Source of the DNA: Vreelandella aquamarina
GTDB lineage: Bacteria > Pseudomonadota > Gammaproteobacteria > Pseudomonadales > Halomonadaceae
Direction: 5' to 3'
DNA length: 64,000 nt
NCBI RefSeq assembly: GCF_900110265.1
Contig: NZ_FODB01000011.1
Coordinates: forward strand, 1 to 64,000
Shown: positions 1 to 14,369 of the stretch, one piece after another
Layout: each line of letters starts with the position of its first letter
Numbering within the stretch: the stretch's first letter is position 1
The notes under the pieces: generated by a model
Told to the model about the DNA's origin: nothing
Seen by the model: only the letters and a program-made list of their open reading frames with translations
The model's database searches: none
Program-made: the position numbers and the translations under genes

Positions 1-335
1 ACCTTCTGGTAGGTCCGCGAGACGCCTTCCTTCTTCGAGTTGCTGTTGTCCATGACGAAGGTGTCGATGTCCAGGCAGACGTGCGTCGTCTCGGCGGTGA
101 TCGGTGCTTCGATCAGTGACAGCAGGGTCGTGGACCAGGTGGCGGTGCGCGCCTGCAGGTCGTTGGCGGCAAGTTTCTCCAGCCGCTGTCGCAGCGTCGC
201 CGCGCTCGGCACCTTCTGCAGGGTCAGCAGTTGTTGGAAGGGCTTGTCGCGGCGGAAGTTCTCGACAGCGTCATAGTCGCTCATGCCCAGACACAGCAGG
301 CCCAGGTAGCTCTTGATCACGTCACTGGTGCGCAT
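1..335 (-). pseudogene. IS1380-family transposase fragment (N-terminal part, cut by window edge)
   Basis: On the minus strand the frame reads through residues typical of the N-terminal half of IS1380-family (DDE group 1) transposases, including SYLGLLCLGMSDYDAVENF, PSAATLRQRLEKLA and DIDTFVMDNSNSKKEGVSRT; the last carries the first catalytic Asp region. There is no own start: the frame is continuous with the group II intron reverse transcriptase remnant upstream of it, and the normal first residues of the transposase are missing. The rest lies beyond position 1, so whether the downstream part is intact cannot be judged. The IS ends are not visible. Confidence 0.8.
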
Positions 336-845
336 GCCCAGCCGATCAAAGTAGGCCACCGTTAATACATGATGGACTCCCGACAGACTGTTGTGCCACC
401 AGCGACGACTCAACGCCGCCACCGATTGTGCTACCCTCGGCGTAGCGCCAAGACGCATCAGCTCACGATAAATCGTCTTACCCCGACGCCATTGCTTAAG
501 GTGCAAAGCTCTTAACCGTCGTCGTATCCACCCGTCCAGCGACCGCCAGATACGAGGTGTTTGCGACAGCTTAAAGTAGCCTTGCCAGCCTAAAAGGTAG
601 CGTCGTAGATAGGCGACGACCTGTGAGATACTGCGTCCGCCATTTCGGCGTGTCAGTTGCCTAATCCGCTGTTTAAATGCCCCCAACGCTTTTGCTGATA
701 TACCACGTCGGACATCTCCACCCTTAGCTTCCCATAGGGCGTAGCCCAGGAACTTGCGGCCAAACACGCTGGTGACCGCACTTTTGGACTCATTGATCGT
801 CAAGCGCAGCTTACTGTAACAGCGACGCTCTACCCAATACAAACC
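336..845 (-). pseudogene. Group II intron reverse transcriptase/maturase, C-terminal remnant
   Basis: The minus-strand frame, open from a TAG at 846-848 onward, encodes the C-terminal part of an LtrA-type protein: the end of the RT domain (LTINESKSAV, RKFLGYALW) followed by the maturase/GIIM domain (YFKLSQTPRIW, LKQWRRGKTIYREL, SRRWWHNS) and the usual near-terminal YFDRLG. The N-terminal RT domain with its catalytic YADD box is absent, so this is a broken copy. At about 333-345, where such proteins normally end a few residues later, the frame passes into IS1380 transposase sequence. I saw no intron domain V/VI, as expected for a rearranged remnant. Confidence 0.8.
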
Positions 846-1505
846 CTAGGCAGTTAACGCTATCTCGCGCTGAAGACGCAGATACAGCAACGCGCTGGCG
901 GTGGCTTCGCTGACCACGCTGGGCCAGGTTAATGGGGGCAGTTTCCATCGGGTAAGCGCATCACCAAGGCGGCTGCTGGCTTCGATATGAGGATGCAGCC
1001 GCCGTAGCTGACGCCCGTGCAGTTTAGCAATATCCACCTGCGCGTTAGGCAGCCCGAATCCCAGCACGTTTCGAAACAGCCCATTAAGCGGCTCAATGGT
1101 GTTCTCTAATTGCCACCCGACTAGCGGCCGATTGCCAATAAACTCCGCCAGCTCACTCAGACACTCAGCATCGGGAGAACGGGGCGAGTGCGTGGCATGC
1201 AACTGATGATGGCGTCGCAGAGTAGCAGGCGCCAGCGCCGATGATGCGACTAAGGTGGCCACCCACGTACGGCTGGTGTGCACTTGGCGCGGGCTTAGCA
1301 CCACCGCCGCCACACTCATTACAGCGGGCTGAACGGCGCTTACCTGGCACGCCATGGCCACGGCCTCTTCCCCCATATAAGGCTGAAACAGCCAGGCATA
1401 GGGCGAGTCCGCCCAGCGACGGCGGTCGCTCTCACGCTGAAGCAGAGTGCGCAGTGAACCGCTGAACAGGGTCATATGTCGATCTAACAAGCGCATTCCG
1501 CTCAC
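846..1505 (-). CDS. DnaQ/exonuclease-fold protein with degenerate active site
   Basis: A 219-residue protein whose GTG start overlaps the stop of the DUF294 gene (GTGA), so the two are probably co-translated. The fold is recognisable from FIGNRPLVGW (about 122-131) and EATASALLYLRLQRE (200-214), which match the 3'-5' exonucleases usually found beside DUF294 genes. The DEDDh catalytic residues are all replaced: the Exo I box reads AMACQ (Ala52, Gln54 for Asp, Glu), Exo II has Thr136 for Asp, and Exo III has Pro195 and Glu200 for His and Asp. This suggests a non-catalytic partner or regulatory protein. Its stop codon lies directly at the edge of the group II intron remnant, so a small C-terminal loss is possible. 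Confidence 0.7.
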   Translation of the reverse strand: MSGMRLLDRHMTLFSGSLRTLLQRESDRRRWADSPYAWLFQPYMGEEAVAMACQVSAVQPAVMSVAAVVLSPRQVHTSRTWVATLVASSALAPATLRRHHQLHATHSPRSPDAECLSELAEFIGNRPLVGWQLENTIEPLNGLFRNVLGFGLPNAQVDIAKLHGRQLRRLHPHIEASSRLGDALTRWKLPPLTWPSVVSEATASALLYLRLQREIALTA

Positions 1506-3319
1506 GAATACTCCAAATGGTAACGATGGGAAAGACGCTGCTTAAAGTCTTTCACGATGCGTAGGGCTTCACGCAACAAGTCCCGTTCTAGCGAAGAGAG
1601 TTCCTGAACGACCACTCGATTGGTGCGTTTAGGGTTGACGTTATCCAACTCCTGAAGCTGCTGACGAAGGCGTAGCTCGGTAAACAGCGCCAGCGCCTCG
1701 CCTAGATCATCAGCAAAGCGGCGGTCAAGCCGCCCATCGGCGGCCAAGGCATCTAAGCGGTCCAAGGTAGAGGTCGCATTAATGCGCCGCTCAAGGGCCA
1801 TCGTACGCACACCGTGGACTATCGGAAAAATACCGCCTTTTTTGATATCAATACCGTGCTGGGGCTTTTTCAGCGAGCCAAATAGCGTCAGAGGCGTCGA
1901 GAAGCGCAGTGCCGCCCGGGCAAAGTAAGAGAGCAGCAGTTCATCGTGGGAGCAGCGCTCAAACAGCGCTTCACGCACCTGATCCAGTAGCGCCGGATTA
2001 CCCGCCACGCCGTGGGAGTCCAATAGAATCGCTAGTTTCATCAGGCTATCGCCATCTCGGGCATTGACCCACTTAGTGATATTGTTTTTCCACTGGGAAA
2101 CCGTACCCACCCACTCTGGGTTAGACACCATGATATTGCCGGGGCAAGGTGGATAGCCTAGCTGGATTAGCGTTTCCGTTAGAGTGTTCATCTCCTCAGC
2201 CACCGTGGGCCACTGGCAATCATCAGCTAAGATCAACCCATTATCTTGATCGGTTTTGAGGATCTGCTCGCCGCGTCCTTCGCTGCCCATCACCATTAAG
2301 CAGCTTTGGGTGTGGTACTGCTCAGGCACTGTGAAGCTCCACGCTTTGCTCATAATGCGCCCGTTCAGCGCCGCCAACAGATCCATGGCAAAACGCAGCT
2401 TTACGCCCTGCGCCATCAGCGCATTCACTAATTCCGGCGTACGCTGGCTAGCCGCCGCCAGCGCTTCCAGACTGCTAGCCTGCTCCACCTGCAGGCTGAC
2501 CACGTAGCTACGGCTAGAGAAGAAGCTCAACACGTCCATTAGCTCAACGACGCCTTTAACACTCTCCCCTTCCATTACCACCACCCGCGCCACTTTATGG
2601 CGGGTCATTAAAATCAGCGCTTCAAACAGGTACTGCTCGGGAGCTACCGTGACCAAGGAGACGTTGGCCAGCGCTTCAACCGGTGTTGCCTGGGTGCAGT
2701 TACCCAATACCAACCCATTGAGCAGATCGGTTTTGGTCACCATGCCCAGGGCGCCTGCAGTAGCGACCAGTAGACTGTCCGCATGACTATCATGTAGCTG
2801 TCGAACAGCGTCATGAATACTCTTTGAGGCATCAATGAGCAGCGGCTCGCGCATACACTCATTCACTTTGGCCAGCATAAAGCCCGCCATGGTGACGCCG
2901 CCTTCAGCGCGTTTTTCGGTGAGCAGGCGCGCTTTGTGTGAGAGCGACTGCTTAAAGAACTGCTCAAACGGTGGATAGTGACGGCACAGTTGAGTAAACA
3001 GCGCTTTAGGCATCACATAGCACAGGCACTCTTGTTCAGCTTGGAAGCGGTAGCGGCTTTTGCCGTTGAGAATACTGATGGCGCCAAACAAATCGCCTGC
3101 GGTGTAGTGGCCAATGCGCGCACTAGCAGCAGGCAGGGTGGGATCAAGCTCGGCGACTTCTCCTTTATGTATCAAAAAAACCGACTCACCCGGCTGGCCC
3201 ATCTCCAGAATAATTTCATCGCGGTCAAAGTAGGCAAGATCCATCCCGCGACGAACATGATCGCGCCCCGCCTCATCCATCAGCGTAAACGGTAGCTGGG
3301 AGAGATCCACTTCTACCAT
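1502..3319 (-). CDS. cNMP-binding/CBS/DUF294 nucleotidyltransferase-like protein
   Basis: A 605-residue multidomain cytosolic protein: cyclic-nucleotide-binding domain (about 10-125), a CBS pair (about 150-270), a GlnD-like nucleotidyltransferase domain (about 300-440) with the motif GSEGRG at 345-350 and an acidic pair Asp357/Asp359, and a C-terminal DUF294_C region. The N-terminal fold and CBS pair suggest that it senses a nucleotide ligand. This family commonly sits beside acetate-type sodium symporters; here it is divergent from the DUF4212/SSS pair across a 607-bp gap. The ligand and the target of the transferase domain are not known from sequence. It is translationally coupled to the degenerate exonuclease-like gene. 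Confidence 0.85.
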   Translation of the reverse strand: MVEVDLSQLPFTLMDEAGRDHVRRGMDLAYFDRDEIILEMGQPGESVFLIHKGEVAELDPTLPAASARIGHYTAGDLFGAISILNGKSRYRFQAEQECLCYVMPKALFTQLCRHYPPFEQFFKQSLSHKARLLTEKRAEGGVTMAGFMLAKVNECMREPLLIDASKSIHDAVRQLHDSHADSLLVATAGALGMVTKTDLLNGLVLGNCTQATPVEALANVSLVTVAPEQYLFEALILMTRHKVARVVVMEGESVKGVVELMDVLSFFSSRSYVVSLQVEQASSLEALAAASQRTPELVNALMAQGVKLRFAMDLLAALNGRIMSKAWSFTVPEQYHTQSCLMVMGSEGRGEQILKTDQDNGLILADDCQWPTVAEEMNTLTETLIQLGYPPCPGNIMVSNPEWVGTVSQWKNNITKWVNARDGDSLMKLAILLDSHGVAGNPALLDQVREALFERCSHDELLLSYFARAALRFSTPLTLFGSLKKPQHGIDIKKGGIFPIVHGVRTMALERRINATSTLDRLDALAADGRLDRRFADDLGEALALFTELRLRQQLQELDNVNPKRTNRVVVQELSSLERDLLREALRIVKDFKQRLSHRYHLEYS

Positions 3320-3926
3320 GGGCGACCTCGCTTAAGGGCAGGGGTTGGGAAGTAAAGCGAACGGTTTGACTACTTTTCAACTCATTCACTTATTATACTT
3401 TAAGCTATAGCGCTAACGTCTTAACGACGTTCGTTTAGCGACTAAAGTAGTGTCTTTTTTAAACTCTCTTAAAACGATTAAACATCACTCATTAAGGTAG
3501 CAAACATTACTTTTAACCGAGCCATAGACTATTGTCCTATCACTTCTCAGACGGCGTTTAAATATCGATGAAAAATCAATAAAAATAATGCTTTATATTC
3601 AAAACAGCCAATTTCACTGCCTTGCAAAGAGCACCTGATACCAAAGTCTGGGATTTATTTTTTGCAATTATTGCCCAGTATTATCAACGAGTCATACAGG
3701 GTAATCGCACGACACCTATCTAACGCACTTCAAGCCGCTGACGATAACTTGCCGATCACCCAATAACGACACAAGACGGCTTAACAATAAGAAGGTGACG
3801 TGCCTGGCAACGCTGTCTTACCGCCCAACACCCAGCGCGGTTTTCTATGCGGGGTCGCCCTGATGAACCAAACACTATCTTGAGTTCACTTTCCAACCCT
3901 AAAAATCACAACTGGAGAGCAACACA
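3320..3926. promoter_or_regulatory. Divergent, AT-rich regulatory region of the symporter and DUF294 genes
   Basis: A 607-bp gap with no credible gene between divergent operons. For the minus-strand gene there is a good -10 (TATAAT on the minus strand, 3392-3397), with no good -35; the -35 zone is instead occupied by a nested inverted repeat at 3411-3440 (AACGTC/GACGTT within CGCTAA/TTAGCG), as expected for an activator or repressor site. On the plus side a ribosome site (ctggagag) precedes the ATG at 3927. I could not identify a sigma-54 -24/-12 element. Confidence 0.5.
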
Positions 3927-4187
3927 ATGGCAGACGATAAATCCAATGCTGCTGAATACTGGAAGGCCAACGTCCGTCTGATCTTAGGATGCCTGGCGGT
4001 TTGGGCATTTGTCTCTTATGGATGCGCCATCCTCTTTCGTCCGCTTCTCGCGGGCATTCCCGTTGGCGGTACGGACCTGGGCTTCTGGTTTGCTCAGCAA
4101 GGCTCCATTCTTACCTTCATCGTGCTGATCTTCTTCTACGCCTGGAGAATGAACGCGCTCGACAAAAAATACGGCCTGGGGGAGTAA
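3927..4187 (+). CDS. DUF4212 small subunit of sodium:solute symporter
   Basis: An 86-residue membrane protein with two hydrophobic segments (about 18-40 and 52-74), matching the DUF4212 (TIGR03647-type) small subunit that always accompanies one subclass of SSS symporters. It lies 6 bp ahead of the large subunit and is surely co-transcribed. The family is thought to form a two-component transporter for short carboxylates such as acetate; the acetate assignment here rests on the neighbours (acs, CrbS/R-like genes). Confidence 0.88.
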   Translation: MADDKSNAAEYWKANVRLILGCLAVWAFVSYGCAILFRPLLAGIPVGGTDLGFWFAQQGSILTFIVLIFFYAWRMNALDKKYGLGE

Positions 4188-4193
4188 GCCAGC

Positions 4194-5975
4194 ATGAGCC
4201 AGTTTGCAATTAACTTACTGTTTGTTGGCGCCTCGTTTGCCCTCTATATCGGGATTGCGATATGGGCGCGAGCGGGCTCCACCAAAGACTTCTATGTCGC
4301 CGGTGGCGGCGTACACCCGATTACCAACGGCATGGCGACAGCAGCCGACTGGATGTCGGCGGCATCCTTTATCTCTATGGCGGGCTTGCTCGCTTCTGGC
4401 GGCTACGCTAACTCCACCTTCCTGATGGGCTGGACCGGGGGCTACGTTATCCTGGCGATGCTACTTGCCCCTTACCTGCGTAAGTTCGGCAAGTTCACCG
4501 TTCCAGATTTCATCGGCGACCGCTTCTACAGTAACACCGCGCGTTTAGTGGCGATTGTGTGTTTGATCGTAGCCTCGGTGACCTACGTTATCGGCCAGAT
4601 GACCGGTGCAGGCGTTGCGTTCTCCCGCTTCCTAGAAGTGAGCAACACCTGGGGTATCTGGATCGCCGCGTTTATCGTCTTCCTTTACGCTGTTTTCGGC
4701 GGTATGAAAGGCATCACGTATACGCAGGTTGCTCAGTACGTGGTACTGATCATCGCCTACACTATCCCGGCGGTGTTTATCGCCATGCAGCTTACCGGCA
4801 ACCCAATCCCGATGTTCGGCATGTTCAGCACACATACAGAGTCCGGCATTCCGTTACTCACGAAGCTTGACGATGTGGTCAATGCACTGGGTTTCCAAGA
4901 CTACACCGCAGACGTTGATAACAAGCTGAACATGGTGTTGTTCACTCTATCGCTGATGGTCGGTACTGCCGGTCTGCCCCACGTTATTATCCGCTTCTTT
5001 ACTGTACCGAAAGTAGCCGATGCACGTTGGTCAGCGGGCTGGGCACTTGTCTTCATCGCACTGCTGTATTTAACCGCTCCTGCGGTTGGCTCAATGGCAC
5101 GTCTCAACCTGGCTACAACCGTCTATCCAGATATGGCTGGGCAGGTGGAAAACTATGAAGAAGCCACTCTTAACCCCATCCTCTATGAAGATCGCCCTGA
5201 CTGGTTCCGCACCTGGGAAGAGACTGGCCTGATTACCCATACTGACCTGAACAACGATGGTCGTATCCAGATGTACAACAATGCGGCTGATTTTTCTGAT
5301 CGCGGCTGGGAAGGTAACGAGCTAGAAGTAAACAACGACATCCTAGTATTGGCGAACCCTGAAATTGCCAATCTCCCAAGCTGGGTAGTGGGCTTGATCG
5401 CAGCGGGCGGTATCGCAGCGGCACTCTCTACCGCAGCGGGTCTGCTCTTGGCAATCTCGTCAGCGATCAGTCATGACTTGATCAAAACCATGATCAACCC
5501 GAAAATCTCCGAAAAAGGCGAAATGCTGGCAGCACGTATCTCCATGGCCGGTGCGATCCTGCTAGCAACTTACTTGGGCCTTAACCCACCTGGGTTTGCC
5601 GCTCAAACGGTAGCACTTGCCTTCGGTATTGCCGGTGCCTCGCTGTTCCCTGCGCTAATGATGGGTATCTTCTCTAAGCGCATGAACAACAAAGGCGCAA
5701 TTGCCGGTATGCTGGCAGGTCTGATCTGCACCCTGCTCTACATCTTCACCTACCTGGGCTGGTTCTTTATTCCGGGCACCAACATGCTGGCCAATACGCC
5801 GGATAACTGGATACTGGGCATTTCACCGCTCTCGTTTGGTGCTGTAGGCGCGCTGATCAACTTCGCTGTGGCCTTCGTTGTCTCTAACGCCACCGATGCG
5901 CCGCCGCAAGAAATTCAGGACCTGGTGGAAAGCGTACGCTATCCGAAAGGTGCTGGTGCAGCGGTTGATCACTAA
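4194..5975 (+). CDS. Sodium:solute symporter, ActP-like (VC_2705 subfamily type), probable acetate permease
   Basis: A 593-residue SSS-family inner-membrane carrier with about 13 hydrophobic segments and the characteristic N-terminal FYVAGGGVHPITNGMATAAD region. It would import acetate or a similar monocarboxylate with Na+. Compared with E. coli ActP it carries a long hydrophilic insertion (about residues 303-392) containing a calcium-loop-like motif DLNNDGRI at 351-358. It follows the DUF4212 small subunit and ends at a strong terminator (6031-6060). The nearby sensor kinase, its regulator and acs support a role in acetate scavenging. The substrate is inferred, not shown. Confidence 0.87.
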   Translation: MSQFAINLLFVGASFALYIGIAIWARAGSTKDFYVAGGGVHPITNGMATAADWMSAASFISMAGLLASGGYANSTFLMGWTGGYVILAMLLAPYLRKFGKFTVPDFIGDRFYSNTARLVAIVCLIVASVTYVIGQMTGAGVAFSRFLEVSNTWGIWIAAFIVFLYAVFGGMKGITYTQVAQYVVLIIAYTIPAVFIAMQLTGNPIPMFGMFSTHTESGIPLLTKLDDVVNALGFQDYTADVDNKLNMVLFTLSLMVGTAGLPHVIIRFFTVPKVADARWSAGWALVFIALLYLTAPAVGSMARLNLATTVYPDMAGQVENYEEATLNPILYEDRPDWFRTWEETGLITHTDLNNDGRIQMYNNAADFSDRGWEGNELEVNNDILVLANPEIANLPSWVVGLIAAGGIAAALSTAAGLLLAISSAISHDLIKTMINPKISEKGEMLAARISMAGAILLATYLGLNPPGFAAQTVALAFGIAGASLFPALMMGIFSKRMNNKGAIAGMLAGLICTLLYIFTYLGWFFIPGTNMLANTPDNWILGISPLSFGAVGALINFAVAFVVSNATDAPPQEIQDLVESVRYPKGAGAAVDH

Positions 5976-6030
5976 GTCATAATCGTTCCACCTTATTGCG
6001 CCGTCGGCCAATAGCGAACGGAACCACCTT

Positions 6031-6060
6031 CCATCGGGCTTCCTTAGGGAAGCCCGATGG
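6031..6060 (+). terminator. Terminator of the symporter operon
   Basis: A perfect 13-bp stem (ccatcgggcttcc / ggaagcccgatgg) with a 4-nt loop, followed by cttttc, 55 bp after the symporter stop. Its position argues against any start of the next gene upstream of it. Confidence 0.75.
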
Positions 6061-6079
6061 CTTTTCAGAAGGAAATAGT

Positions 6080-6610
6080 ATGATTTGGCACTTAGTGGCC
6101 GCTGTGTTTGCAGGCCTTGCCGCGGCAGGTATCGGCCTATTGCTTCGAACAATCAGCCGTAAGCGGCTACCCAAATGGATCGTGCCGGTGTTTGGTGGGC
6201 TGGGCATGCTGGGTTATCAGGTTCAATTTGAGTATGACTGGTTCGAGCATAAGCAGCTGCAGCTGCCGGAAACGGCCCAAGTGATTTCCAGCGACACGTC
6301 CAGCAACATGTGGCGACCCTGGACGTTTATTTTCCCGATCACCACCACTTTTAGTGTGGTGGATAGCGAGAATGTACGCGCCCAAACCGTCGATGGCGAT
6401 CTGGTGGCCGAGTTTATTCTTTACCAGTTTGAGCGCCGCCATACGGACCTGATCACCACGCAGCCCTACATCCTCAACTGCTCAAGCCGAGAGCTGATTC
6501 CGCTAAACCCAGAGACCGGGGACGCGGATCTCAATGAGCTACGCACACTCCGCGACACCTCACCGCTGCTGACCACCGTTTGCCAACTGGCCAACGAACG
6601 GCAGACGTAG
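6080..6610 (+). CDS. Conserved-looking small membrane protein of unknown function
   Basis: A 176-residue protein. The ATG at 6080 is chosen because it follows an aaggaa ribosome site (6069-6074) and lies downstream of the symporter terminator; an in-frame extension to 5996 would have to read through that hairpin. The N-terminus has two hydrophobic stretches (about 2-23 and 32-48), followed by a soluble domain of about 125 residues probably outside the membrane. It contains no motif I recognise. Its place between the symporter and the CrbS-like kinase may hint at a role in the same module, but no function can be assigned. Confidence 0.75.
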   Translation: MIWHLVAAVFAGLAAAGIGLLLRTISRKRLPKWIVPVFGGLGMLGYQVQFEYDWFEHKQLQLPETAQVISSDTSSNMWRPWTFIFPITTTFSVVDSENVRAQTVDGDLVAEFILYQFERRHTDLITTQPYILNCSSRELIPLNPETGDADLNELRTLRDTSPLLTTVCQLANERQT

Positions 6611-6738: not shown

Positions 6739-9700
6739 ATGTTTCATGGCGGGCTGCTGGTCGCGGTGTCACTGCTCTATATTGCAGTGCTGTTTGGTAT
6801 TGCCTGGTTTGGCGACCGGCGTGCACGCACTCACGGCGCTAGCCAGCGCCGCCCGATTATTTATAGCTTGGCGCTCGCTATCTACTGCACGTCATGGACC
6901 TTCTACGGCGCGGTGGGTCAAGCTGCCACCGCGGGCTGGTCGTTTGCCAGCATCTTCGTGGGGCCTATTCTGACGTTTTTGCTCTTCTGGCCTGTGCTGG
7001 CGAAGATGATCCGCGTTGCCAAGCACCAAAACGTCACCTCCATTGCCGACTTCATTGCCTCCCGTTACGGTAAAACCCAATCTCTGGCCGCTTTTGCTAG
7101 CCTGGTCGCCCTTGTCGGCACCCTGCCCTACATCGCGCTACAGCTAAAAGCGGTCTCCACCACGTTCAGCGTGCTCACCGACGCTTCCGATGTTACTCAT
7201 ACGCCACTGTTTGGCGATACGGCCTTTTATGTGGCAGTAGTGATGGCCATTTTTGCCATTCTATTCGGCACGCGGCATACCGATGCCACTGAACATCATG
7301 AAGGTTTAATCCACGCCGTCGCGTTTGAGTCATTGGTCAAGCTGCTGGCCTTTGTCGTGCTCGGCGCTTTTGTTACCTGGGGCATGTTCGATGGCCTGGG
7401 TGAGCTGATGGGGCACGCAGAGAGTCAGCTTGAACTTCAGCGCCAGCTCGCTAATCAGGATTTTGGCCAGAGCTTCTGGGCGCAGACCCTGCTCGCCATG
7501 CTGGCAATCCTGTGTCTACCCCGCCAGTTTCATGTGGCGGTGGTCGAGAACATTCACCCTAACGACGCCACTAAAGCACGCTGGCTGTTTCCGCTTTACT
7601 TGCTGGCGATTGCCTTTTTCGTAGTTCCCCTGGCCGCCGCTGGTCTGCTGCTGTTTTCAGAAAGCGGTGTGGAGCCCGACACCTATGCGCTCGCCCTTTC
7701 CATGGCCTCCGGCCAGCAGTGGCTCACGCTGCTCACGTTTATCGGCGGATTCTCTGCCGCAACGGGCATGGTGATTGTGGCGGCGGTGGCGGTCTCCATC
7801 ATGATCTCGAACGAAATTGTGATCCCGGCGCTCTTCAGGCTGCGCTGGTTCGACACCAAAGCCAGAGACTATGGCCGTTTGGTGCTGCGCGCTCGCCGCC
7901 TCACTATCGTGGCCGTGCTGGCCATGGCGTACGGCTTTTATCAGCTGATTGGCGAATTCACCTCGCTGGCCTCCATCGGCATGCTCTCGTTTGCAGCGGC
8001 GGCCCAGTTTGCTCCGGCGCTGATTGGCGGGCTGTACTGGAAGCGCGGCAACCGCTTAGGCGTCATTGTGGGCATGAACGTGGGCTTTGCTATTTGGGCG
8101 TATAGCCTGCTCATGCCCGCCATGATTAACGCTGGTGTACTGCCTCAAGCGTGGCTTGCCGGTGGCCCGCTGGGGCTTAACTGGCTGTCGCCGACGGCGC
8201 TGTTTGGCCTGAACATGGGCGATGCCTTTACCCATGGCGTGATGCTTTCGCTAGGGGTCAATCTGTTCTGCTATATCTTTGTCTCACAGATCACCTCCCA
8301 GCGGGTAGTCGAACGCATTCAGGCGTCGCTGTTTGTGGATAGCGTCGAAACTCGCCAAACCTCCGTTAATCGCCCCTGGACAGGGGCCACAACGGTGGGC
8401 GATTTGAAAGTGCTGTGTGAGCGCTTCTTAGGCGCGGGCCAAGTCGACCGTGCCTTCGATGATTACGCACGCCGAGCGGGCAAGCCGCTGGACGATGGCA
8501 CCCGCGCCTCCATCGACGTGATCCAATTCACCGAGCGGTTTCTCGCCTCTGTCTTGGGGGCATCGTCGGCGCGGATCGTGGTGAACTCTGCCCTTCAAGG
8601 GCGAGGCATCGGTATTTCCGATGTGATCTCCATCGTGGATGAGGCCTCCCAGGTGCTGGAGTTCAACCGTGCCCTGCTACAAGCCACCATCGAGAACATC
8701 AACCAAGGCATCAGTGTGGTCGACCAGAACCTGCGCCTAGTGGTGTGGAACCAGCGCTATTTAGAGCTGTTCCGCTTCCCCGACCACATCATTCGCGTCG
8801 GCGCACCGATGGATCGCATCTTCCGCTACAACGCCCACAACGGCGAGTACGGCCCCGGCGACCCGGAAGAGCACGTGCAGCTACTGCTGGATAACATTCG
8901 CGATGGCCAACCCCACCGCTACGTGCGCTACCGCCAGGACGGCAGCGTGCTGGAAGTACAGGGCAACCCGATGCCCGGCGGCGGCTTTGTCTACACCTAT
9001 CAGGATATTACCCAGCAAAAGCGTATCGAAGAGGCGCTGATCCGCTCAGAAAACAATATCCGCATCTATACCGATAACGTCCCGGCGCTCATTGCCTACT
9101 TCGATAAAGAGAGCCGCTATCTCTTTACCAACCGCGCCTACGAGCAGGCGTTCAACATCGACCGCAACGCGGTGATTGGGCGGCGCTACGAAGACGTGCT
9201 GCCGGTGAAACAGGCCGAAGAACGGGTGCCCTGGGTACAGCGCACCCTGGCCGGTGAGCGGGTCAGTTTTGAAGTCTCCATGCAGGTCAACGACGCCATG
9301 CGCTATATGCTGGTGACCTACACCCCGCACTTTGGTGACAGCCAGTCGATTTTGGGTTTCTTCGCGCTGTATCAAGATATTACCGAGCGCCGCCAAGCAG
9401 AAATTGCCCTCAAAGAGACCAACGAAACCCTGGAAGAGCGGGTGCGCGAGCGTACCCAGGCGCTCTCCGAAGCCAACGCTGCTCTACGCCAAGAGAACCG
9501 CGTGCGTGCCGAAGCGGAGCAGGCATTGCGCCAGGCCAAACAGCTCGCTGAAGACGCCAACGCTTCGAAAACCCGCTTCTTGGCCGCCGCCAGCCACGAC
9601 CTGCTGCAGCCTTTGAACGCCGCGCGGCTGTTCACCTCGGCGCTAATGCAGAACGTCACCGCCAGCGACACCCAGCGCACCATTGGCCATATCGATAACT

Positions 9701-10683
9701 CTCTTCAGGCCGCCGAAGAGCTTCTCGGCACATTGCTGGATATCTCCAAGCTGGATGCCGGTGCGCTGACGCCACGGCGCAGCCACTTTGCCCTGGCCGA
9801 TATTTTCCGCCCACTACGCGCTGAGTTTGAGGTGATGGCCGATGATCGCGGCTTGGATCTTGACGTTGTGCCCACTCAGCAGTGGGTGGATTCCGACCCG
9901 CAGATGCTGCGCCGGATCGTGCAGAACTTCCTCTCCAACGCGATTCGCTACACTCAAGAGGGGCGCGTGCTGCTTGGCTGCCGCCGCCAAGGAGGGCGAC
10001 TGCTGATCGAAGTATGGGACAGCGGGCCAGGGATTCCCGAATCCAAATTGACGGAGATATTTCAAGAGTTCCGACGCCTCGATCAGGTTTCCCGTCATAA
10101 AGAGAGTGAAAAAGGCCTGGGGCTGGGACTCTCCATCGCCGACCGTATGAGCCGCGTGCTGGATCACCCCATCAAGGTGCGCTCCTGGGAGGGTGTAGGT
10201 ACGGTGTTCTCGGTCAGCGTGCCCATCGTTGCGGCACGGGAAGCGACGATAACTGATCATCAAGAACCCCACAGCCGCCGCAGCGGCAACAAGCTGGCAG
10301 GCACTCGGATCGTGTGTATCGACAACGAAACACTGATTCTAGAAGGCATGACTGCGATGCTCAGCGGCTGGGGCTGCGAAGTGTTTACCGCCACCAGCAT
10401 CGGTGGGGCAAAGTCGATTCTACGCAATATGGACGGTGATCCTGACGCCATCCTGGCAGATTATCACCTGGATAACGAGATCACCGGCCTGATGGCGCTA
10501 GAAGCACTTAGTGAGCGCTTTGCAGGGGCCGTTCCCGGCATTGTCATCACCGCCGACCGTACCGAAGCCGTCGCAGAAGAGATCAAGCGGGCAGGCTACC
10601 AGCTCCTGCTCAAGCCGGTGAAACCAGCCGCCCTACGCGCACTACTCACTCGTACTCTCCAGGCCAGCCGCGCCAAACCCTAA
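6739..10683 (+). CDS. crbS: Symporter-fused hybrid sensor histidine kinase, CrbS-like
   Basis: A 1314-residue inner-membrane protein. Residues 1 to about 500 form an SSS-type transporter domain; two PAS domains follow (about 647-760 and 775-890), then a coiled coil, a HisKA domain with the phospho-accepting His953 (AASHDLLQPLN), a HATPase domain (N box near 1060, GLGLGLSIADR near 1130) and a C-terminal receiver with Asp1241 (ILADYHLD). This architecture matches CrbS of Vibrio and Pseudomonas, which with CrbR activates acs and acetate uptake genes. A gaggag ribosome site sits before ATG 6739. The regulator gene lies convergently downstream and acs behind it. Whether the transporter domain carries or only senses substrate cannot be told from sequence. 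Confidence 0.88.
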   Translation: MFHGGLLVAVSLLYIAVLFGIAWFGDRRARTHGASQRRPIIYSLALAIYCTSWTFYGAVGQAATAGWSFASIFVGPILTFLLFWPVLAKMIRVAKHQNVTSIADFIASRYGKTQSLAAFASLVALVGTLPYIALQLKAVSTTFSVLTDASDVTHTPLFGDTAFYVAVVMAIFAILFGTRHTDATEHHEGLIHAVAFESLVKLLAFVVLGAFVTWGMFDGLGELMGHAESQLELQRQLANQDFGQSFWAQTLLAMLAILCLPRQFHVAVVENIHPNDATKARWLFPLYLLAIAFFVVPLAAAGLLLFSESGVEPDTYALALSMASGQQWLTLLTFIGGFSAATGMVIVAAVAVSIMISNEIVIPALFRLRWFDTKARDYGRLVLRARRLTIVAVLAMAYGFYQLIGEFTSLASIGMLSFAAAAQFAPALIGGLYWKRGNRLGVIVGMNVGFAIWAYSLLMPAMINAGVLPQAWLAGGPLGLNWLSPTALFGLNMGDAFTHGVMLSLGVNLFCYIFVSQITSQRVVERIQASLFVDSVETRQTSVNRPWTGATTVGDLKVLCERFLGAGQVDRAFDDYARRAGKPLDDGTRASIDVIQFTERFLASVLGASSARIVVNSALQGRGIGISDVISIVDEASQVLEFNRALLQATIENINQGISVVDQNLRLVVWNQRYLELFRFPDHIIRVGAPMDRIFRYNAHNGEYGPGDPEEHVQLLLDNIRDGQPHRYVRYRQDGSVLEVQGNPMPGGGFVYTYQDITQQKRIEEALIRSENNIRIYTDNVPALIAYFDKESRYLFTNRAYEQAFNIDRNAVIGRRYEDVLPVKQAEERVPWVQRTLAGERVSFEVSMQVNDAMRYMLVTYTPHFGDSQSILGFFALYQDITERRQAEIALKETNETLEERVRERTQALSEANAALRQENRVRAEAEQALRQAKQLAEDANASKTRFLAAASHDLLQPLNAARLFTSALMQNVTASDTQRTIGHIDNSLQAAEELLGTLLDISKLDAGALTPRRSHFALADIFRPLRAEFEVMADDRGLDLDVVPTQQWVDSDPQMLRRIVQNFLSNAIRYTQEGRVLLGCRRQGGRLLIEVWDSGPGIPESKLTEIFQEFRRLDQVSRHKESEKGLGLGLSIADRMSRVLDHPIKVRSWEGVGTVFSVSVPIVAAREATITDHQEPHSRRSGNKLAGTRIVCIDNETLILEGMTAMLSGWGCEVFTATSIGGAKSILRNMDGDPDAILADYHLDNEITGLMALEALSERFAGAVPGIVITADRTEAVAEEIKRAGYQLLLKPVKPAALRALLTRTLQASRAKP

Positions 10684-10750: not shown

Positions 10751-11413
10751 TTACGACTCGACTTTTGGCGGCTCCACTTCCAGTTTCTGCGCGGCAATAA
10801 CTGCCTGAGTGCGCGAGTGCACGCCCAGCTTGCGCAGAATGGCCGTCACATGGGCTTTAATAGTCGCTTCTGACACATTCAGCTCGTAGGCAATTTGCTT
10901 ATTCAGCAGGCCTTCGGTCAGCATGTTCAGCACGCGAAACTGCTGGGGTGTTAGCGAGGCAATCGCCTCAGCAAAGCGCGACTCCTCTTCACTGGTCTCT
11001 TCCAGTACGTTGGCTAGTGCTTCCGGTAACCACACCTCACCCTGCAGAATCTCACCGACCGCTTCCGCGATCAGTTGCAGCGACGATGATTTAGGAATAA
11101 AACCAGAGGCACCGTAGTCGATAGCACGACGCACCACGTAGGGCTCATCGCTGCCGGATACGACGGCTACCGGAATATCCGGCATCTGCCCGCGCAGTTG
11201 GATGAGACCCGAAAAGCCGTGGGCACCAGGCATATGAAGATCCAGCAGAATTAAATCCGCATCGGGGTGTCGATTAACGACCTCAGTGGTGGCTTCCATG
11301 GTGTCGGCTTCGACAATCTCAGCCTGGGGGGCCAACTGGCGCAACGCCTGGGTGAGCGCTGCACGAAACAGCGGATGGTCGTCAGCGACGATAAACTTAT
11401 GGGCTACTGCCAT
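10751..11413 (-). CDS. crbR: LuxR-family response regulator, CrbR-like
   Basis: A 220-residue NarL/LuxR-type regulator: receiver domain (about 5-120) with the acidic pair Asp11/Asp12 and phospho-acceptor Asp58 (LILLDLHMPG), then a LuxR helix-turn-helix (about 145-205, LTPQQFRVLNMLTEGLLNKQ). The ATG at 11413 is chosen because it follows a perfect GGAGG 7 nt upstream; a longer in-frame reading to 11485 lacks such a site. It lies downstream of acs on the same strand, separated by a terminator-like hairpin, and opposite the CrbS-like kinase, its likely partner. Expected target: acs and the symporter operon. Confidence 0.88.
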   Translation of the reverse strand: MAVAHKFIVADDHPLFRAALTQALRQLAPQAEIVEADTMEATTEVVNRHPDADLILLDLHMPGAHGFSGLIQLRGQMPDIPVAVVSGSDEPYVVRRAIDYGASGFIPKSSSLQLIAEAVGEILQGEVWLPEALANVLEETSEEESRFAEAIASLTPQQFRVLNMLTEGLLNKQIAYELNVSEATIKAHVTAILRKLGVHSRTQAVIAAQKLEVEPPKVES

Positions 11414-11560
11414 GGATATTCCTCCGGTTCCTCGAGCAGCGGGGTTGCCTGCCGCCGCGACGCTAGGCTCATACGGTTGAAGCATGGTACCCCATGGGCT
11501 TCATCATGCCCAAGCATCACATGCACAATTTGTTATTGGAACGTCATTCAAACAGAAACA

Positions 11561-11683: not shown

Positions 11684-13633
11684 TTACTGGTTGGCACGAT
11701 GTTCGATCAGGTCATCGACCACCGACGGGTCTGCCAGCGTGCTGGTATCGCCCAGACCATCGCACTCGTTGGCGGCAATTTTGCGCAGAATGCGGCGCAT
11801 AATTTTACCTGAACGCGTTTTCGGCAGCCCCGGCGCCCACTGGATAACATCCGGCGACGCAATCGGCCCGATATCCTTACGCACCCACTGGGTCAACTCT
11901 TTCTTTAGCTCGTCCGTGGGATCGATACCGTCGTTCAGGGTCACGTAGATGTAGATGCCCTGGCCTTTGATATCGTGGGGGAAGCCCACTACAGCCGCTT
12001 CGGCCACGGCAGAGTGCGCCACCAGCGACGACTCGATCTCGGCGGTGCCCATGCGGTGGCCGGAGACGTTCAGCACGTCGTCCACCCGGCCGGTGACCCA
12101 GTAGTAGCCATCCTCATCACGACGGCAGCCGTCGCCCGTGAAGTACATGCCGTCGTAGGTAGAGAAATAGGTCTGAACGAAGCGCTCATGATCGCCCCAA
12201 ATAGAGCGCGCTTGCCCCGGCCAGGAGTCCAGAATCACCAGGTTGCCCTCGGTGGCTCCTTCGAGTTGGTGGCCTTCGTTATCGACCAGGGCAGGTTTGA
12301 CGCCAAAGAAAGGCGTGGTCGCCGAGCCTGGTTTCAGGTCGGTGGCCCCTGGCAGCGGCGCAATCATGATGCCGCCGGTTTCTGTCTGCCACCAAGTATC
12401 CACAATCGGACACTTCTCGTTGCCGATCACGCGGTAGAACCACTCCCACGCTTCGGGGTTAATCGGCTCACCCACCGAGCCCAGTAAGCGCAGCGAATCA
12501 CGCTTGCTGGAATCCATCACGTTGTCGCCATGAGCCATCAGCGCACGCACGGCTGTGGGCGCGGTGTAGAGGATATTGACCTGATGCTTATCGACGATTT
12601 CACCCATGCGGCCGTGGGTCGGATAGCTCGGCACGCCTTCAAACATCAGCGTAGTGGCACCGTTCGCCAGCGGGCCGTAAACGATATAGCTATGCCCGGT
12701 CACCCAGCCCACATCTGCCGTACACCAGTAGATTTCGCCCTCTTGATAGTCGAACACGTACTGATGCGTCATGGCGGCGTAGGTCAGGTAACCACCGGTA
12801 GTGTGCTTCAAGCCTTTCGGCGCGCCGGTGGAGCCTGAGGTGTAGAGAATGAACAGCGGATCTTCCGCATTCATCGCCTCAGCTGGGCACTCGCTGGACT
12901 GTTTGTCGACCAGCTCGTCAAACCAGATATCGCGGCCTTCCTGCCAGTCGATCTCACCGCCGGTACGCTTCACAACCAGCACGTTTTTGCACACATCGGT
13001 GCCGTCACGCTTGAGCGCAGAGTCGACGTTCTCTTTCAGCGGCACATGCTTGCCACCGCGAACCGACTCATCGGCAGTGATCACCAGTTTGGAATCTGCG
13101 CCGATGACCCGCTGGGCCACAGCGTCTGGCGAGAAGCCGCCAAATACCACCGAGTGCACCGCACCGATACGGGCGCAGGCCAACATGGCCATGGCCGCTT
13201 CGGGAATCATCGGCATATACAGCGTTACTGTATCGCCTTTCTGAACACCCAGCGATTTCAAGCCGTTTGCTAGCTGATTGGTGCGCTCGTAAAGTTCGCG
13301 ATAACTAATATGTTTGGATTCGTTGGGGTTATCGCCTTCCCAAATAATCGCCGTTTGGTCGCCGCGCTTCTCTAGGTGGCGATCTAAGCAGTTCGCCGCG
13401 ACGTTAAGTTCGCCGTCTTCAAACCAGCGGATATCGACGTTATCTCGGGCGAACGAGGTGTTTTTGATTTTGCTGGGGGTTTTAATCCAGTCGAGGCGTT
13501 TTGCTTGCTCGTCCCAGAAACCTTCTGGGTCGTCCATGGACTGCTGATACATTGCCGCATATTTATCTTTATCGGCCCATGCCTTGGCAGCGATGCTATC
13601 GCGCACTGGATAGACGTTTTTATGCTCGCTCAT
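11684..13633 (-). CDS. acs: Acetyl-CoA synthetase
   Basis: A 649-residue cytosolic AMP-forming enzyme of standard length (E. coli Acs is 652) that makes acetyl-CoA from acetate, ATP and CoA. Visible motifs: the adenylate P-loop [12 protein letters not shown] (about 264-275), [24 protein letters not shown] and the C-terminal [14 protein letters not shown], whose Lys is the acetylation-controlled residue in this family. An aaagg ribosome site precedes ATG 13633. With the symporter and the CrbS/R-like system nearby, it completes an acetate-scavenging module. Confidence 0.97.
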
Positions 13634-13802: not shown

Positions 13803-14369
13803 TCACAGGTTTTTAAATGCGCTGTAGACCAAGGTCTGATCACAATGGCGGCAACGATAACGACGCCCCTTTACCACCAAGGCATGACGTCTGGCGGTAA
13901 AATGATGGACCTGGCAGCCACACTCATACCGATAAGGACGCGGTTGGGAACGCTGAATATCAAAGCGGTGAGTCACCCGTGGCACCAAGCCAAACAGATT
14001 TCGCATCACCGACTGCCACTCGCGGCCGTGGGGCTTTAAGCGCGTGCCGTTGGCCAGATGAAAGACCAGCCAGTGGGCCATCTCGTGGGGAATCACTTCA
14101 TCGAAGAAGGCCTGTCGATTGTCTTTCAACAGCACTGGGTTAAAGCGTAGTCCACCCCGCCCAAGATGCGCCTGCCCTGCTGAAGCACCTTTCAAATCAA
14201 ACCATACCTTTGGGGCAGGCAGCGCTGGGTAGACTTCTCGGCAGCGTGCCAGGGCCTGCGCCACGCGCTCTTGAGCCGCCTGAAGCAGCGCGTCATGAGA
14301 ACGCGACATGAGCTCATCGCGCGGCCAAGGGGGCAGTGGTGACGTCTTCATTAGTGATAAACTAGCCAT
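13803..14369 (-). CDS. SprT-like zinc metallopeptidase family protein
   Basis: A 188-residue protein with the HEMAH zinc motif at 95-99 and a C-terminal zinc-ribbon (CGC...CRHC, about 150-179), the layout of bacterial SprT/YcgS-type proteins related to eukaryotic Spartan. The biological role of bacterial SprT is poorly known. The first Met at 14369 is used; a second Met at residue 7 is possible. It is divergent from the UPF0149 gene with only 69 bp between the start codons. Confidence 0.87.
   Translation of the reverse strand: MASLSLMKTSPLPPWPRDELMSRSHDALLQAAQERVAQALARCREVYPALPAPKVWFDLKGASAGQAHLGRGGLRFNPVLLKDNRQAFFDEVIPHEMAHWLVFHLANGTRLKPHGREWQSVMRNLFGLVPRVTHRFDIQRSQPRPYRYECGCQVHHFTARRHALVVKGRRYRCRHCDQTLVYSAFKNL

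Follow-up and report, generated by a model that had tools for sequence, protein, structure and literature searches.

Enzymatically dead nucleases with a DnaQ fold are best known from eukaryotes, Maelstrom being the prime example. The MAEL domain of this protein is described as a DEDD-type fold that has lost the catalytic residues and has an active relative in a protist (PMC4408791). The fungal Ssd1/Dis3L2 pseudonucleases are described as having lost the active site at least four times while retaining another function (PMC8097288). A bacterial system with a bearing on the locus analyzed here is that of Pflu5625 from Pseudomonas fluorescens: according to passages of PMC5715377, this protein depends on CrbS, its promoter carries an ACTU inverted repeat, and the pflu5625 deletion mutant had no phenotype; the word "exonuclease" has no occurrences in the text of that paper.

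Results

Gene, fold, and catalytic positions

The gene under study lies at 846..1505 on the minus strand of the window, the 64,000-nucleotide stretch of Vreelandella aquamarina DNA analyzed here, and forms an open reading frame of 219 codons without internal stops that encodes a PRK09145-like DnaQ-fold protein of 219 aa, a predicted pseudonuclease (frame, NCBIfam match, model, and structure matches). It is located directly after a gene of the cNMP-CBS-DUF294 type (1502..3319, minus strand), the GTG start codon (1505-1503) overlapping the TGA stop codon (1504-1502) of the latter; the intact frame and the overlap described in the initial annotation agree with these coordinates. The partner protein (605 aa) consists of cNMP-binding, CBS, DUF294 nucleotidyltransferase, and DUF294_C domains, all above the Pfam cut-offs, and its GSEGRGEQ and TDQDN motifs are intact.

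At E-values up to 1, the only NCBIfam model to match the window protein was the PRK09145 (NF006601) 3'-5' exonuclease (E = 1.1e-29), with 103.4 bits vs the curated cut-off of 189, which places the protein outside the equivalog family; no Pfam family scored above its cut-off. The AlphaFold2 model (pLDDT 85, pTM 0.83, with residues 1-13 poorly modeled) retrieved DnaQ (8h2f, E = 3.4e-07) as the top Foldseek match and gave VIA Z values of 15.7 to 9qpc, a part of a DNA polymerase, and 15.4 to the E. coli epsilon chain 2gui (157 aligned residues, rmsd 3.2). The top structural matches of the model comprise DnaQ, polymerase, TREX, epsilon, and RNase T exonucleases, and the family profile matches the solved DnaQ/DEDDh chains 8h18, 2p1j, 8fyc, and 8fy9. 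As modeled, then, the window protein has a DnaQ-like exonuclease fold.

The enzyme motif of this fold (D-x-E in Exo I, D in Exo II, H-x4-D in Exo III) is not found in the window protein. The five DEDDh positions are occupied by Ala52 (codon at 1350..1352) and Gln54 (1344..1346), both within AMACQ and replacing the Exo I Asp and Glu; Thr136 (1098..1100), replacing the Exo II Asp; and Pro195 (921..923) and Glu200 (906..908), replacing the Exo III His and Asp, all read on the minus strand. The first two assignments come from alignment to both intact relatives and solved chains, and the other three from alignment to intact relatives (32-38% identity, with the motifs VAIDCETTG, GWRLDFDLA, and RHTALGDA); the register of the catalytic columns is further backed by profile alignments to 8h18, 2p1j, and 8fyc. 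An alignment shift that would give back the acidic residues, which had been considered a potential flaw of the assignment, is excluded by these alignments. The substitutions are those originally claimed; because Glu200 is a conservative substitution for the Exo III Asp, the statement that all five residues are replaced is true by letter, with one of the replacements being mild. Altogether, the loss of catalysis is strongly supported by the sequence.

The window begins at the contig start, close to a single minus-strand open frame (3-842) in which the C-terminal region of a group II intron maturase is fused to a portion of an IS1380 transposase. Beyond the stop codon of the pseudonuclease gene, the relatives share sequence for about 20 bases and then diverge; in V. 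lionensis (L031), the sequence that follows is different from that in the window. Truncation by the adjoining mobile element was considered and rejected because the C-terminus is the same as in the relatives and the common sequence extends about 20 bases past the stop. An Rfam search of window positions 1-4500 produced no match at the gathering score.

Distribution and selection

The exonuclease-like gene was detected in 32 of 37 genomes of the same genus and, in a wider set, in 67 of at least 75. Related loci were taken from the best 80 of 136 confirmed stretches, ranked by similarity, and 121 of the 218 family genomes among the matches listed were scored (61 of 67 from the same genus and 60 of 151 from other genera), plus one more genome (G031). 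All of the same-genus genomes scored (62 of 62) have lost two or more of the four acidic metal ligands, and no stop was listed within the matches in these genomes, at odds with a pseudogene decaying in one strain. Collapsing the 204 extracted sequences to distinct cores left 150, namely 148 from the family, the window included, and two order-level outgroups (L151 and L153), both intact, so that 44 of the 46 intact sequences are family members. Counting by letter (D200E is scored as a loss), five residues are lost in 47 of these sequences, four in 29, three in seven, two in two, one in 16, and none in 46; the remaining three have a gap at a catalytic column and were left unclassed. Because 20 of the 60 other-genus genomes were chosen from weak matches, the share of dead sequences outside the genus is not an estimate of their frequency.

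The median dN/dS in 26 disjoint pairs of dead sequences was 0.096 (range 0.021-0.286) by NG86, a crude method, whereas the DUF294 partners of these 26 pairs gave 0.060 and 13 disjoint pairs of intact exonucleases gave 0.125. When all pairs were used, dN/dS was 0.104 for dead sequences (215 usable pairs) and 0.301 for intact ones (255 pairs), but the disjoint pairs are preferred because all-pairs comparisons overlap and dS is near saturation. The dN/dS of about 0.1 in the dead pairs implies that the dead protein evolves under purifying selection, and 41 columns are invariant across 30 same-genus sequences. Of the checks proposed, the alignment of homologs with scoring of the catalytic columns and dN/dS returned dead columns in a gene under selection. 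A pseudogene or a sequencing error of a single strain is excluded by the conservation within the genus, the open frames, and dN/dS. Judged by its sequence alone, the window protein is a pseudonuclease, with the catalytic motif gone and the gene under purifying selection. Damaged relatives also exist: L083 is split into two frames, L189 consists of two frames and contains a stop, and L186 and L190 lack an inner stretch.

Recurrent loss in Halomonadaceae

Among other Halomonadaceae, some members retain DCETTG, DFD, and RHTALGDA. The rows of the DUF294 tree assigned to Modicisalibacter are all intact (3/3); those of Halomonas include 13 intact, three with one ligand or the His changed, and 22 dead; and in Billgrantia, six of the seven rows carry a single change. 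The broken residue sets differ, including GQEHV, AQDHT, DVDHD, KEDHD, HEDHD, DEIHD, DEDND, ADTGE, and others. The DEDND set, where only the Exo III His is changed, to Asn, occurs in L084, L086, L098, L106, L109, and L110, with Billgrantia among them. Single-residue changes may leave some activity and were excluded from the dead class.

In the exonuclease tree, built with the five columns masked from 149 rows (L083 was too short to be included), the intact/broken state changes 10 times, and 17 maximal clades are devoid of intact sequences, many of these consisting of a single row that has one change or gaps. The dead sequences of the window's genus (g1) and of a second group, g309, form one clade of 81 rows (support 74) in this tree, which is perhaps a case of long-branch attraction. 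The tree of the DUF294 partner (173 rows) is less exposed to bias from erosion; it implies 12 changes of the intact/broken state and five losses of two or more metal ligands, although two single-row clades and a 7-row g1 clade placed apart from the other g1 sequences make the number of heavy losses uncertain, with four or fewer possible. The five separate clades with a dead or absent exonuclease, two of them in the window's genus, are the main g1 clade (91 rows), the second g1 clade (7 rows), g309 (10 rows), and the single rows L230 and L243.

A paralogous pair provides a control. A second DUF294 gene is present in 37 of 37 genomes of the genus, with its exonuclease in 25 of 25 tested; this pair-2 exonuclease has the residue set DEEHD in 32/32 genus rows (about 27 distinct genes) and in 30/30 rows from other genera (two of the 32 genomes gave no locus). 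Pair 2 of the window genome is found at G000:C110:9432-12018 (L148, L251); the Exo II acid is Glu, and DEEHD is found in 62/62 rows. Redundancy with pair 2 is not supported as a sufficient cause of the loss: all 32 family genomes tested for the pair-2 exonuclease have it, and of these the pair-1 exonuclease is intact in 25, singly changed in one, and dead in six.

A further sample of 93 DUF294 loci (83 plus ten) comes from outside the Halomonadaceae, except for the window genome's own pair 2, and skips G000:C18, which is the window, and G056:C43, already in the set as L159. In this sample, the exonuclease is adjacent or fused in 64 loci and absent in 29, and the five residues are kept in 64/64 (25 DEDHD and 39 DEEHD). 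A detection bias that would hide dead exonucleases outside the family appears unlikely, given that an HMM built from intact seeds recovers 85 of 85 dead sequences. Within the sample taken, erosion appears to be particular to the pair-1 exonuclease of Halomonadaceae.

Coupling to the DUF294 partner

In 192 of 194 loci, several copies from one species included, the aligned part of the exonuclease starts between -30 and +119 nt from the DUF294 stop, always on the same strand, in support of the claim that selection acts on a DUF294-coupled gene (dead-pair dN/dS as above). The partner keeps its motifs, GSxxR in 210/210 and DQDN in 209/210 loci, pair-2 and outgroup loci included; 123 of these 210 loci adjoin a dead exonuclease. 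The sole DQDN exception, L151 (G037:C65:500-6000), is the reverse case, with an intact exonuclease (DEDHD) next to a DUF294 protein where GPLDYG replaces TDQDN; another DUF294 gene of this genome (L152) is unpaired. Two single-frame fusions, L350:825-2987 (plus strand) and L353:1528-3699 (minus strand), combine an RNase_T domain with intact DEDDh residues with CBS, DUF294, and DUF294_C.

Eight same-genus genomes (G009, G015, G017, G029, G034, G547, G614, and G632) keep the DUF294 gene (71-78% identity), and two HMMs (E up to 1) find no exonuclease near it, the flanks searched in the last three being at least 1.5 kb on each side; hence, DUF294 can do without the exonuclease subunit within the genus. 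Of the five exonuclease-less loci with longer flanks, four have ttcA next after DUF294, and in L141 a TtcA-like frame was recognized by eye at this place. Among the exonuclease-less loci (L141-L145 and L360-L362), L144 and L360 retain a GTGAG that resembles the lost start and may be due to chance. Nine family genomes from other genera that have no exonuclease also yielded no close DUF294 gene (the best that six of them offer is a pair-2-type match at 26-29%, and the other three gave no match), a joint absence that is expected of partners.

Kept and freed positions

Four of the five former catalytic columns are highly variable among 67 dead sequences of the Vreelandella type (variability percentiles 0.89 for column 54, 0.78 for 136, 0.91 for 195, and 0.66 for 200), so the old pocket gives no sign of a new conserved site; column 52 is Ala in 60 of the 67 (percentile 0.39). 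The framework outside the old pocket is, by alignment, conserved. Fixed in dead and intact sequences are R28, F40, P42, Y43, G45, E47, S64, A66, A67, V68, and H99, as well as F122, G124-P127, G130, F150, L152-N154, and R169, some of which may serve the fold only. Aligned relatives reveal three kept motifs, all encoded on the minus strand: PYAWLFQPYMGEE (residues 35-47; 1365..1403), largely conserved in dead and intact relatives, FIGNRPLVGW (residues 122-131; 1113..1142), and LGFGLPN (residues 148-154; 1044..1064). The net charge of the last 190 residues moves from -3.9 in the 46 intact sequences to +2.3 in the 67 dead ones, with part of the shift due to the lost acids themselves.

The acetate locus

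Divergently from the DUF294 gene, the window encodes a DUF4212 protein (3927..4187, plus strand), followed by a sodium/solute symporter of the VC_2705 family (4194..5975, plus strand) that scores above the cut-offs of the VC_2705 and sss models only; its identification as ActP was rejected because it falls short of the ActP model cut-offs. A small protein encoded between the symporter and kinase genes (5996-6610, plus strand; MIWHLVAA...) has no match in Pfam and has look-alikes, recognized by eye, in L156 and L159. The kinase (6739..10683, plus strand) is a hybrid histidine kinase with PAS, HisKA, HATPase, and receiver domains and a C-terminal part of the NahK/ErcS type above cut-off; Pfam detected no symporter domain in it. 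Next to it are a response regulator with a LuxR-type HTH (10751..11485, minus strand) and an acetyl-CoA synthetase with ACAS_N and AMP-binding domains (11684..13633, minus strand). We infer the names CrbS-like for the kinase and CrbR-like for the regulator.

Using an ACTU-like pattern derived from motif examples printed in passages of PMC5715377, we identified two candidate CrbR sites by pattern match, TACTTTAGTC (3440..3449, minus strand) upstream of the DUF294 gene and TACCAAAGTC (3639..3648, plus strand) in the divergent intergenic region. Of 78 DUF294 upstream regions (the window and 77 of the 80 best loci), which are related rather than independent, 72 contain the pattern, compared to 5.0% of mononucleotide shuffles; many of the sites lie at similar distances. 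Over the whole window, there are six matches vs 2.5 expected, and because eight of 100 shuffles reach six or more, the window by itself is not significant and the evidence is the conservation across regions. The presence of an ACTU-like sequence in the promoter region makes the gene pair a putative member of a CrbS/R (ACTU) regulon. A palindromic ACTU-like match also precedes the acetyl-CoA synthetase gene, at 13827-13836, some 190 bases before its start.

Discussion

That a gene stays intact beside a signaling gene despite repeated loss of its active site suggests a job without cutting. We give roughly even chances to the reading that the window protein is a dead DEDDh exonuclease serving as a scaffold or gate subunit of a DUF294 unit in a CrbS/CrbR-like acetate locus. 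Under this scenario, a cyclic nucleotide and a CBS ligand would serve as signals for the DUF294 protein, which would attach a nucleotide to some component of acetate metabolism, whereas the pseudonuclease would still fold against the nucleotidyltransferase and steady or gate it, presumably making contact via the conserved non-catalytic motifs PYxWLFxPYxGxE, FIGNRPLxGW, and LGFxLPN; cutting might have become dispensable in Halomonadaceae, with the active site then eroding and the gene being lost in some lineages. Support for a dead subunit comes from the fold, the five changes, the loss in 62/62 genomes, dN/dS, the coupling and kept motifs of DUF294, the fixed non-catalytic positions, the two fusions, the ACTU-like sites, Pflu5625, and the joint absence of both genes; against a scaffold stand the eight same-genus genomes with DUF294 alone, the lack of a phenotype in the pflu5625 mutant, and the positions that may be conserved for the fold only. 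A broader version, which we hold tentatively and with considerable doubt, is that the DUF294-exonuclease pair of many Gammaproteobacteria functions independently of nuclease activity, the exonuclease being a regulatory scaffold that gates a cNMP/CBS-controlled nucleotidyltransferase acting on acetate metabolism. If true, Halomonadaceae split scaffold from catalysis several times, in a natural experiment on an undescribed signaling unit.

Other explanations account for parts of the data. The initial annotation envisaged a nucleic-acid- or nucleotide-binding adaptor, in our wording one that would deliver RNA, DNA, or a nucleotide to its DUF294 partner. Precedents are the MAEL domain, which binds ssRNA after loss of the DEDD residues (PMC4408791), and the fungal RNase II pseudonucleases that act as RNA-binding proteins (PMC8097288); the rise in net charge from intact to dead proteins also speaks for this reading. 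With the charge shift partly consisting of lost acids and four former active-site columns at variability percentiles of 66-91 (39 for column 52), we consider such an adaptor unlikely; of the original proposal of a pseudonuclease recruited for binding, the pseudonuclease holds at the level of sequence, and the mostly variable former active-site columns speak against a new ligand site in the old pocket.

A relaxed remnant, that is, an exonuclease that lost its use and whose gene is on its way out, would fit the coexistence of all stages among the 150 distinct sequences (none lost in 46, one in 16, two to five in 85), the absence of the exonuclease beside a kept DUF294 in eight same-genus genomes, and the broken frames of L083 and L189 and inner gaps of L186 and L190; yet, dN/dS of dead pairs (about 0.1) is no higher than that of intact pairs, and 41 columns are invariant in 30 same-genus sequences, which leaves decay unlikely in our estimate. 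An active nuclease with relocated catalytic residues is highly improbable: in a 65-row alignment, E47 and D158 never vary and H99 hardly does, but the five original columns align clearly with intact relatives and solved chains, and since an alignment of dead together with intact relatives shows no variation at E47, H99, or D158, these are not replacement catalytic residues.

Whichever role the dead subunit of the DUF294 unit plays, one bacterial family displays an exonuclease in every state from intact through partly broken to dead or absent, beside a partner that keeps its motifs, with the paralogous pair 2 of the same genomes, intact in every scored row, as a built-in control. With this series, roles of DUF294-linked exonucleases other than cutting can be addressed, and it offers a way into the cNMP/CBS/DUF294 proteins; according to passages of PMC5715377, the Pseudomonas acetate regulon includes one such protein, to which no output has been assigned.

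Pseudonucleases as a kind are already known; for the DUF294-linked bacterial case, no published mention was found. In the open-licence PMC literature, DUF294 and an exonuclease were not found mentioned together, in line with the original impression of a new setting, and neither were combinations of CBS, cyclic nucleotide, nucleotidyltransferase, exonuclease, and acetate; COG2905 with exonuclease led to a Burkholderia genome paper, and DUF294 on its own is mentioned in 15 papers. Among the matches listed for inactive DnaQ/DEDDh proteins, titles and abstract openings contained no such case, and passages of a bacterial polymerase survey mention neither DUF294 nor Halomonas.

Compared with the described systems, Pflu5625, a cAMP-binding/CBS/nucleotidyltransferase protein, resembles the window partner at the level of its domain make-up and ACTU-type sites; it differs from the window locus in that the exonuclease is unmentioned in its paper (PMC5715377) and that the mutant has no phenotype. 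The NF006601 (PRK09145) family is similar in length, and members above the cut-off also adjoin DUF294 (for example, L341, L345, and L348), whereas the window protein reaches 103 bits vs 189 and has all five catalytic residues changed. The RNase II family is not known to have a DnaQ fold. Ssd1/Dis3L2 proteins differ from the window protein in belonging to that family and in keeping N-terminal cold-shock domains, and Maelstrom differs in having a structural zinc site, ssRNA binding, a place in the piRNA pathway, and no DUF294 partner; the window protein nevertheless shares with Maelstrom a DEDD-type nuclease fold from which the catalytic residues are gone, and with Ssd1/Dis3L2 the repeated loss of the active site in a gene that is retained.
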